Positions 61,161-64,000 of a DNA stretch of 64,000 nucleotides are shown here, in pieces. A program made the translations under genes and the position numbers. A model generated the notes under the pieces. It saw nothing but the letters and a program-made list of their open reading frames with translations, made no database searches and was not told the origin of the DNA. The stretch's first letter is position 1. Every line of letters starts with the position of its first letter. Where the stretch lies: positions 1 through 64,000 of the forward strand of contig JAAYNI010000096.1 in assembly GCA_012520995.1 (NCBI GenBank), read 5' to 3'. This DNA comes from Candidatus Rifleibacteriota bacterium (GTDB lineage: Bacteria > Muiribacteriota > Ozemobacteria > Ozemobacterales > Ozemobacteraceae).

Positions 61161-61243
61161 AGGTTTTTAAGCGCAATGACCATATAGAAGTATTCAAAAA
61201 CACTAATGGTTATTGACTGGACGGTGGCTAATGTAAAATGAAT

Positions 61244-61283
61244 AGCAGGCGTATGCAAGGAAAACTGCATACGCCTGCTTTTT
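61244..61283 (+). terminator. Perfect 14-pair hairpin followed by T-run
   Basis: AGCAGGCGTATGCA (61244-61257) and TGCATACGCCTGCT (61266-61279) are exact reverse complements around an eight-base loop, followed by TTTTGT. It is a plus-strand terminator shape. No plus-strand gene ends at it; a short broken frame just before it (61155-61240) may be the last trace of a deleted gene. Confidence 0.7.
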
Positions 61284-61340
61284 GTATTCAATTAGCCTTA
61301 TCTCAATATCTTTGCTTCATCAAAAACATCGCAAGGATAT

Positions 61341-61789
61341 TCAAAAGCAAATCTCTTTTATTCTGACCAGAAGAAGCTCACGGGCGGTCTTTTTGTGCCT
61401 GTTTGAAAGCCATCTGTAATACCCCGACACGCTGATTTTAAGAAAACGGCACATCTCTTTGACTGTAAATTTTTCCTTGTATTCCAGCACAAACAGATGC
61501 CGTTCACTTGTTTTTAGTTCTTCCGGTCTTTTGCGAAAAAACCGAGGGTGTCCTTTAAAATATCATTTGCTCTTTCAAGCTCGGCATTTTTCTTTTCAAG
61601 CTCACGGATAAGGGCTTTTGCCTGGGCATCCGTCAGATGATTTATTGGCTCTGCAAGCCTGGCTTTTCTGTTTTTTCTTCACTCGGAAAGTGTGTAGTAC
61701 TTGAGCCCTAACTGTTCACACGCTTTCTTCGTTCCGATTTCGTCCGAGAGCTTTAACGCCTCATCTTTAAATTCTTTGCTGTAATTCAT
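61341..61789 (-). pseudogene. IS3-family transposase remnant (OrfA with nonsense codon, OrfB truncated)
   Basis: OrfA reads from ATG 61789 to TAA 61514 in one frame of 91 codons, beginning MNYSKEFKDEALKLSDEIGT and containing the IS3-typical EPINHLTDAQAKALIRELEK and NAELERANDILKDTLGFFAK leucine-zipper part. Codon 37 is TGA (61681-61679) in the position where relatives have TGG (YYTLSEW), so OrfA is broken. OrfB follows in another frame (KEMCRFLKISVSGYYRWLSN near 61440), but ends after about 55 codons at 61341. The IS is therefore dead. Other genes here use TGA as an ordinary stop, so recoding is excluded. The upstream IS end probably lies near 61840-61850, within the WYL gene's coding region. 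Confidence 0.85.
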
Positions 61790-62442
61790 TTTTTTACACC
61801 TCTTCTGATTTTTATTTTATCAGCTTTTGGGGTCTTGTCGACTCTACTTATATGATAACAGATCATTGAGGATATTTTTTTATAGTCAATTCCATTTTCG
61901 TATCCTGGAACATCTCGCAAAGGCATAACTGGTTTATCATAGAAACTAATATTGCTTATTCTATCAAGCCTATGAAACACCATATCATTCCAGTAGGAAC
62001 TATGTGCCATCAAATAATAATGCTGATTGTGCATAATCAAAAGATATGGAGTAACCCTTTGAAACGAGGATTTATGCAACTTTTTATCTACACCATATTT
62101 ATTATAGTCGTATTGGAGCTGCTTACCTTCTTCAATAGCAGTATCGACCATTTCAATATTGTAAAACAGGGCTTTGTTTTCGGTTTTATTCCATTCCTTA
62201 ACTGAATGAATGTTTTTAACGTGGGAGCGAAAATACTTGTTGGAAAGTCCACAGAGTTTTTCAATGAGGTCGGCAGAATGAGTAGGATTGATGTGTTTAC
62301 TACAAAGAACACTATCAATCAGTAGCTTTAATTCAGAGTCCTCAAAATCTCGACTCTCGATGTAGCTTCCGGCACGACGGGACTCAATATCTACACCTGC
62401 CTCTTTCAGCAGAGAAATATTCCGACTAATTGCTTTTGCCAC
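61786..62442 (-). pseudogene. WYL-domain transcriptional regulator, truncated at both ends
   Basis: Frame from 62442 (GTG) to TGA at 61786. The start KAISRNISLLKEAGVDIESR is the middle of a winged-helix domain, so the N-terminal part is missing. The WYL core follows: ALFYNIEMVDTAIEEGKQLQ, YDYNKYGVDKKLHKSSFQRV, TPYLLIMHNQHYYLMAHSS and MVFHRLDRISNI. The protein stops shortly after YKKISSMICYHISRV, about 100 residues short of usual WYL proteins. The last ~18 codons appear to come from the inserted IS3 element. WYL proteins are ligand-sensing regulators that are frequent in phage-defence loci. The gene directly adjoins the end of a nuclease-like pseudogene in another frame, consistent with a deletion. 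Confidence 0.75.
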
Positions 62443-63088
62443 GCATCATAGCGGTCAAAAATTGAACATAACAAATTATGTCCGAGCTTCTTTTTGTCGG
62501 GAACCGTACTGCCGATTAGCTTAGTTATCACATTGTGAAAAACTTCGTATGCGTTGATAGGATACCCAACCGTTGTATTGTCCAGTTTGAAATAATAATC
62601 TTCGTCCAAATACGCATCCTTCAGTTTTCCATGAGTGCTCAACCATTAAAGAAATTTCATTTCACAAAAAACTGCCGTTTTTGTAGATTCATTGCTCAAA
62701 AAAGCATCCAGGTTAGCAGGATTACTACCTTTCTTGACGGTGTACATTTGCTTTTCATATTGTACGTTATATTCACCCATAGGGATAACAGAATCCGAAA
62801 ACACAGTAATCGGTTCGTTTCCCAACAAATTGAAAGTCATAGCAGAGAAAGAAACGATACTCGCCATTTTTGCAGGGCTTTGAACAAGTTTTCCTCTAAC
62901 TATTTTTCAGTAGGGCGTGTTTCCGCACCGCTTCCTTTGTCATAGGCTTCAAGAGCCTGCTTTCCTAAAGGACAATATAGATTGTCCTCGTAGTTTTTGT
63001 AATAGAAACGCTTACTTGTATCACCCTTACCTTCGGGGATAATAGCGTATTTCAAAATAGATTCTGTAACTTTTTCTCTTAAAGCCAT
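62443..63088 (-). pseudogene. Nuclease-like protein (putative PD-(D/E)XK type), broken in three places
   Basis: Three consecutive minus-strand segments form one protein. First, ATG 63088 (AGGAG seven bases before) reads MALREKVTESILKYAIIPEG, on to YCPLGKQALEAYDKGSGAET and a TAG at 62902-62900. Second, after a frame change, 62867-62646 reads MASIVSFSAMTFNLLGNEPI and QYEKQMYTVKKGSNPANLDA to a TAA directly after VFCEMKFL. Third, continuing in the same frame as the second after that stop, STHGKLKDAYLDEDYYFKLD through SIFDRYDAWQKQ at about 62443. The phrase VFCEMKFL resembles the E-x-K half of a PD-(D/E)XK nuclease site; this is an inference. The gene is inactive through nonsense codons, a frameshift and loss of its 3' end. 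Confidence 0.65.
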
Positions 63089-63100
63089 AAAAATTCTCCT

Positions 63101-63149
63101 ATCAAAACTTGTGTTTTTACATCGACTTGTGTTTTTACATCGTTTTGAT
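63101..63149. repeat. Two tandem 18-base repeats between inverted ATCAAAA/TTTTGAT
   Basis: The unit CTTGTGTTTTTACATCGA stands at 63108-63125 and again, as 17 bases, at 63126-63142. It is bracketed by ATCAAAA (63101-63107) and its complement TTTTGAT (63143-63149). It lies in the short gap between the DUF2779 stop and the pseudogene start and could be a regulatory site or a slippage duplication. Confidence 0.6.
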
Positions 63150-63190
63150 TGTACCATAAATGGTGCGGACATTTTTGGTACATTACCTTT

Positions 63191-64000
63191 TTATATTTCC
63201 TTGAGTTTTTCCCATACCTTAACCATTGCATAAGTGTCCAAACCACAGTATTTCAGAAGGTGTTCTCTCATTAATTCGATTTTATCCTCTGTCATAGTTG
63301 CCATTTTAGCAAAGGCTTCAGATGCCTCGCCTCCATTGTGAACACCTTCCAAGTTGTGATAATCGAGAGAAGGGTCGTTGGGAAATAACGCAGGCAAAAC
63401 ATACTTAATAGAGTAAGACCCCTGCATTGCTCGGCAATAATACCACTTTTTCTGGAATGGAATCATTAGGTCAACAATATGGTCGTGAATATTCATCAAA
63501 TGGTCTCGTAGGTCGGGGAATATTTCGGCAAGCCCTCTGATTCTGCCTTTTTCAAACCCCATATTATAAGCTGTGGTGCAGACGTTCAGAGGTATATCGG
63601 CACACAACTGTTCCGCAAGTTTGCGGCGAGGATCTTCACCGGGATAGGCTAAAAACTCCTTGTGCTTTAATTCGTCGTCCTCGTGCTCAAGGTAGTGTAA
63701 CGAATATTGAAACACGATCTGCTCAAAAGGATGTGAATGGTCATACAAAGGAATTGCTGGTTGGAACGATTCAAAATCCAGAAAATACAAGGGGAATGAA
63801 ATATTTTTCATAAACCCACGGATACTTTCTGTGTCTATGTATGGTGGATAGTCGAAAAGTTCGTGCTCAATTTGTTTGTACTGCGAACCTGAGAGCAAAT
63901 CACAGGTGTTCAAATCTTCAAACGAAACAATTCCATTGCGATAGCACTTGAACTTAGTAGATGTTCTTGCACCTGCAACGTCAAATATATTTGGAGTAGG
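63191..64000 (-). CDS. DUF2779 protein, exonuclease-like (runs off right edge)
   Basis: 269 codons are open from the window edge to the stop at 63191; the gene continues beyond 64000 (an internal TTG at 63913 is not its start). The part seen matches DUF2779: NIFDVAGARTSTKFKCYRNG, then FPLYFLDFESFQPAIPLYDH, AYNMGFEKGRIRGLAEIFPD, QGSYSIKYVLPALFPNDPSL and LLKYCGLDTYAMVKVWEKL. The pattern FLDFES...YNMGFEK...YCGLD resembles the three motifs of DEDDy exonucleases (D-x-E, then N-containing motif, then Y-x3-D), so RNase-H-like nuclease activity is a reasonable inference. No lesion is visible in the part present. It adjoins the broken WYL and nuclease-like genes. Confidence 0.75.
   Translation of the reverse strand, partial: PTPNIFDVAGARTSTKFKCYRNGIVSFEDLNTCDLLSGSQYKQIEHELFDYPPYIDTESIRGFMKNISFPLYFLDFESFQPAIPLYDHSHPFEQIVFQYSLHYLEHEDDELKHKEFLAYPGEDPRRKLAEQLCADIPLNVCTTAYNMGFEKGRIRGLAEIFPDLRDHLMNIHDHIVDLMIPFQKKWYYCRAMQGSYSIKYVLPALFPNDPSLDYHNLEGVHNGGEASEAFAKMATMTEDKIELMREHLLKYCGLDTYAMVKVWEKLKEI

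Follow-up and report, generated by a model that had tools for sequence, protein, structure and literature searches.

A decaying locus of WYL, nuclease and DUF2779 genes in a Candidatus Rifleibacteriota genome is probably the remnant of a mobile defence island

The window analysed here is a stretch of 64,000 nucleotides at the start of a Candidatus Rifleibacteriota contig. Reading inward from its right edge on the minus strand, it contains a DUF2779 gene (which continues past the edge), a broken PD-(D/E)XK nuclease gene and a broken WYL regulator gene, and a remnant of an IS3-type insertion sequence abuts the C-terminal end of the last of these (Table 1). An earlier, sequence-only reading had placed a WYL regulator, a nuclease-like gene and a DUF2779 gene side by side on one strand, with the first two inactivated by several lesions and an IS3 insertion, and all three genes, both inactivations and the IS3 element were found. 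The island runs about 4.5 kb beyond the window (contig segment L002, C62:61001-80000), where two DUF262 genes and the remnant of a DUF6508 gene lie upstream of DUF2779 on the same strand, and it is flanked by the gene for an EF-G-like GTPase (named from sequence) and a gene for a large PKD/carboxypeptidase-regulatory-like protein. Just outside the insertion sequence remnant, at window positions 61243-61290 of the plus strand, there is a GC-rich, perfectly paired hairpin (gcaggcgtatgca...tgcatacgcctgc) that runs into T and resembles a terminator.

Table 1. Features of the locus; unprefixed positions are those of the window, and C62 marks positions on the contig
Feature	Position	Strand	Basis and state
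IS3-type insertion-sequence remnant	61341..61830	-	PF01527 HTH_Tnp_1 on orfA, E=3.1e-6
WYL regulator fragment	61846..62436	-	PF13280; 70% identity to L004 WYL, 68% to L017 WYL
PD-(D/E)XK nuclease fragment, REase-ARP-like	62436..63088	-	two-frame match to intact 317-aa homologue L124:8799-9752
DUF2779 protein, C-terminal part in window	63191..64000 (full gene C62:63191-64684)	-	PF11074
DUF262b (GrwB-like)	C62:64916-67111	-	PF03235; 731 aa, intact
DUF262a (GrwA-like)	C62:67111-68829	-	PF03235; one in-frame stop near start
DUF6508 remnant	upstream of DUF262a, beyond window	-	read along contig

The damage to the individual genes was mapped by alignment to intact relatives as follows: The WYL open reading frame (61786-62442) matches the Pfam WYL profile with E=1.1e-8, and the fragment, 70% identical to a complete 328-aa homologue, spans its residues 48-244 (the intact relatives in loci L004 and L005 are 328-329 aa long), so that residues 1-47, with the N-terminal DNA-binding end, are missing at the junction with the nuclease gene and residues 245-328 are missing where the IS3-type remnant begins. 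That remnant has one in-frame stop in orfA and an orfB whose translation is cut after about 49 aa; the orfB stub gave weak HTH matches in a profile search, and the element is present as a single copy in its own genome. The nuclease fragment, the VFCEMKFL protein of the earlier reading, aligns in two frames with an intact 317-aa homologue from Clostridia (L124), which itself matches Pfam REase-ARP (PF22558) with E=1.4e-6; residues 31-62 of the homologue correspond to 62921-63016 and residues 67-208 to 62436-62870, and the reciprocal match (E=9.6e-16) contains one TAA. Its lesions are a frameshift near 62900, the TAA at 62643-62645 and the loss of its C-terminus at the WYL junction, and it retains a catalytic-looking NLDAFL...CEMK. 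The open reading frame at 62406-62642 was considered as the WYL N-terminus and rejected; it aligns with the PD-(D/E)XK nuclease. The genome is a 101-contig assembly, and the lesions might in principle be assembly errors in a locus that is intact in the organism, but they are several, independent and of differing kinds in adjacent genes, they are accompanied by an abutting insertion sequence remnant and long intact genes lie on both sides, and we regard this explanation as highly improbable.

The DUF2779 gene is complete and intact, and encodes a 497-aa protein that matches PF11074 above the cut-off with E=7.6e-46 in the window and E=2.6e-45 in a second profile search. Among 42 sequences of the family the residues C16/C206/C212/C218, D98, E112, K114, Q130, D297, E299, D399 and D477 are invariant, and the window protein keeps every expected catalytic and cysteine residue. 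Its AlphaFold model has a mean pLDDT of 94.3, and from this model and the conserved residues the protein is predicted to consist of a Cas4-like PD-(D/E)XK half and a DEDD-exonuclease-like half. The N-terminal half appears Cas4-like in its four cysteines, its D...ExK...Q motif and its modelled Cas4 fold, for which Foldseek returned Cas4 (4r5q, 8d3l and 4ic1) and EXO5 with probability 1.00 and E-values of only 4e-3 to 3e-2; the other half carries D297, E299, D399 and D477 as its DEDD-like set and was matched to the exonuclease domains of DNA polymerases with high probability and modest E-values. A search against PDB sequences gave no match. The fold prediction that had been suggested for this protein, the conserved residues and the literature (PMC3985635) thus all agree with the initial guess of a DEDD exonuclease, to which the Cas4-like half is an addition, and both neighbours of the WYL gene, the REase-ARP-like PD-(D/E)XK gene and DUF2779, are nuclease-like, as first thought. 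DUF2779 is RNase H-like family F.17 in the available text of PMC3985635, the identical Pfam family, where the family was earlier predicted to combine 3'-5' exonuclease activity with a DUF83 (Cas4-like) domain; that two-half prediction agrees with our structure search, whereas the functional context, absent from that text, is here a tie to WYL genes and to loci of type IV restriction. In the accessible portions of the open-licence literature DUF2779 appears as nothing beyond a predicted exonuclease and is given no role in defence. Cas4 and UvrD-Cas4 in type III R-M loci (PMC5704561) are similar in that a Cas4-like nuclease occurs in restriction loci with WYL genes, but they belong to a family other than DUF2779 and have no DEDD half.

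Do the genes of this locus occur together elsewhere? DUF2779 loci were gathered solely by DUF2779 similarity or domain, and within 10 kb of DUF2779 in the resulting 86 loci (1.31 Mb) we found WYL genes in 24, DUF262 genes in 11 and McrBC in 5. The proteins were clustered at 70% identity into 46 clusters, with the window and its closest relative L123 (below) left out, and compared with 35 random segments from Clostridia genomes as follows: WYL genes are present in 13 clusters and 0 controls (Fisher P=0.0003), DUF262 genes in 7 and 1 (P=0.066, which is only suggestive) and McrBC in 5 and 0, with DUF262 or McrBC in 11 of the 46 clusters. The genome-wide background is about 0.15 DUF262 and 0.4 WYL genes per Mb (matches counted by hand), which predicts ~0.2 and ~0.55, respectively, in 1.31 Mb, and the observed numbers lie far above this; the strong figure for DUF262 enrichment depends on this genome-wide density and not on the random segments. 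WYL and DUF262 genes are both near DUF2779 at four loci (the window, L004, L005 and L022), and in L004 and L005, which are from Firmicutes, intact DUF2779, WYL, DUF262a and DUF262b genes stand in a row, separated by -7 to 105 bp. On plasmids, annotated WYL genes lie beside DUF2779 in L134 and L136, and a short WYL protein is encoded nearby in L133.

The three-gene system of WYL regulator, nuclease and DUF2779 that had been proposed was not borne out by this co-localisation search: the association of WYL with DUF2779 stood, and that of the REase-ARP-like nuclease did not. The nuclease is absent from all 35 genomes that hold DUF2779 relatives, lies beside DUF2779 in no other locus collected, has no homologue in the plasmids or viral contigs searched, and is present in 1 of 40 genomes of the host phylum, namely that of the window. 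Its homologues turned up only among the 341 Clostridia genomes, away from DUF2779, and the best of them adjoins HipA-like and large helicase genes (names read from sequence). An A. butzleri plasmid has the order PD-(D/E)XK-DUF2779-WYL, but its nuclease is PDDEXK_4, a family other than that of the window nuclease. What these observations support as the recurrent unit is DUF2779 plus WYL in company with nuclease systems, of type IV or otherwise, that vary from locus to locus, rather than the earlier trio, which did not include the two DUF262 genes past the edge of the window.

The WYL genes have precedents in defence loci. WYL regulators govern defence operons in studied cases (PMC9122601), and BrxR/CapW-type regulators (PMC9122601, PMC9122588) resemble the present case in that a WYL protein adjoins defence genes, type IV restriction systems being among the most frequent; the local protein differs in having no N-terminal DNA-binding end, and is likened to them by its WYL domain and context. 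NCBIfam gave a named family for neither the WYL nor the DUF262 proteins.

DUF262a and DUF262b are adjacent with a 1-base overlap, both have an N-terminal DUF262 domain (PF03235), and the pair carries QR, DGQQR and FTRLN motifs. DUF262a matches the His-Me (DUF1524) profile PF07510 (E=3.1e-4, narrowly missing the curated cut-off), and EHI...NLALLN...N is conserved in its intact relatives. DUF262b has the invariant DGQQR and a long C-terminal part with no other Pfam domain; its AlphaFold model is confident only over the DUF262 part (mean pLDDT 49), so we make no claim about the C-terminal part. In PADLOC the GrwA-like protein matched HEC-06, Orf5 and SspE solely through its DUF262 region and the GrwB-like protein matched nothing. 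GrwAB, as described in the available text of PMC12137116, is a two-protein GmrSD-like type IV restriction system of the Vibrio cholerae WASA lineage that targets phages carrying hypermodified bases and works only when both proteins are present. It has the same two adjacent genes, the first with DUF262 and a His-Me nuclease with H...N...N, in which the two N are nine residues apart both in GrwA and in the relatives here, and the second with DUF262 and a long C-terminal region without a known nuclease, with QR and DGQQR kept; the difference is that DUF2779, WYL and DUF6508 join the pair here, none of which that text describes for GrwAB. TgvAB of V. cholerae VPI-2 (PMC12409362, PMC11411939) also consists of two DUF262 proteins, one with DUF1524, but there the nuclease is on the second protein, and TgvA has been described as a protein different from GrwB. 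Judged by the published domain plan and motifs, the pair is likely to be GrwAB-like.

The closest relative of the island is L123, a 35,220-bp IMG/VR contig with intact DUF6508, DUF262a and DUF262b genes, a Y-family polymerase/YolD cassette and a DUF2779 gene that is cut by the contig end, so its WYL gene cannot be seen. The island is 89.6% identical to it in DNA sequence over 4,337 bp and 83.9% identical over DUF2779. L123 also encodes a type III methyltransferase, a defence-type HKD+Snf2 helicase and, as read from sequence, two serine-recombinase-like proteins, and we therefore take it to be a mobile defence island and not a phage; among phage records, DUF2779 gave only short partial matches, in Helicobacter phages. 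The window genome lacks the cassette (L123:7594-10016, UmuC-like polymerase and YolD-like protein), which in L123 separates the GrwB-like gene from DUF2779. Gut-type Firmicutes are the source of other DUF2779 relatives, at 73-81% identity, and the gene is present in 9 of 40 genomes of the host phylum. Between island and L123 the dN/dS values are 0.035 for the GrwA-like DUF262a, 0.073 for the GrwB-like DUF262b and 0.035 for DUF2779, and these low values mean that all three genes were strongly constrained until recently; the decay of the island is recent. Very probably the local island is now inactive, since lesions disrupt the genes for the regulator, the PD-(D/E)XK nuclease and the GrwA-like protein. 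The suggestion that the locus is the ruin of a defence module gains from the intact homologues in defence contexts, the WYL-DUF2779 recurrence and the relative on an element with type III R-M genes, and we consider it very likely that it is the remnant of a mobile defence island.

DUF2779 keeps other company as well. McrB and McrC genes follow it directly or closely in L040, L041 and L052 (Campylobacterota) and in L107 (Clostridia); in L011 its neighbour is a reverse transcriptase gene, and in L012 it stands next to genes for Schlafen-type helicases that have NERD or GIY-YIG domains. SbcCD-type genes are near it in L015, L016, L033 and L035 and in the plasmid loci L131-L133 and L135. With SbcCD, helicase and reverse transcriptase neighbours, DUF2779 has no exclusive link with type IV restriction. 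In L105-L107 a divergent branch of the family is flanked by conserved genes, with patatin and M16/PreP peptidase genes close by, and this setting may be a housekeeping one. In L006:11538-15937 and L118:9913-13830 the neighbours of DUF2779 are large and co-directional, several of them (311, 711 and 1305 aa) have no Pfam match, and these are possible unknown defence genes.

How might the genes of the island have worked? The reading that we favour, with some reserve, is that the locus forms the 3' half of an anti-phage island that was gained by horizontal transfer and is now decaying, and in which the GrwAB-like pair, DUF2779, the PD-(D/E)XK cargo and WYL acted jointly. We infer that the WYL protein would hold expression of the genes down until infection makes itself known through nucleic-acid signals; the two DUF262 proteins would then recognise modified phage DNA, the GrwA-like protein (DUF262 NTPase/sensor plus His-Me nuclease) would cut it and, judging from the gene neighbourhood, DUF2779 would degrade the ends left by the cut. 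Cooperation of DUF2779 with the DUF262 pair is a tentative proposal to which we give slightly less than an even chance. It is conceivable, with a chance again a little short of even, that the genes are independent cargo grouped only by defence-island membership, DUF2779 (with WYL) and the DUF262 pair being separate systems: DUF2779 keeps switching partners (GmrSD, McrBC, SbcCD, reverse transcriptase, helicases), the gene order in the window and L123 is unlike that in L004 and L005, the UmuC/YolD cassette could insert between the pair and DUF2779, and DUF262 pairs are mostly without DUF2779 (by our reading of about nine close pairs in the 341 Clostridia genomes, it accompanies only the one in the locus chosen as centre). 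The tight same-strand spacing in L004, L005, L042 and L056 and the repeated choice of modification-dependent enzymes (the 11 clusters above) argue against such loose grouping.

DUF2779 might also be a DNA end-processing repair enzyme that travels on mobile elements without a direct anti-phage role. It repeatedly adjoins SbcCD, which leaves a role in DNA repair open, the Y-family polymerase/YolD cassette is next to it in L123 and its predicted fold is like Cas4/EXO5; however, it is patchy (18 of 341 Clostridia genomes) and plasmid-borne, and its neighbours are WYL, McrBC and GmrSD genes and not core repair operons, and we think this explanation unlikely. Returning to joint action in defence, a broader version of it would make DUF2779 a WYL-controlled double nuclease which modification-dependent restriction enzymes of the GrwAB-like, GmrSD and McrBC kinds share as an accessory for degrading DNA, and the L004/L005 operon an extended GrwAB-type system; this is possible but on the doubtful side.

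The locus is a small example of a mobile defence island that entered a distant lineage and decays there, with constraint still apparent in its nuclease genes. For the DUF2779 family it offers the testable proposal of a Cas4-like/DEDD double nuclease that is often under WYL control and works with type IV restriction, and, if the accessory reading is true, DUF2779 would destroy the phage genome starting from the cuts made at modified bases.
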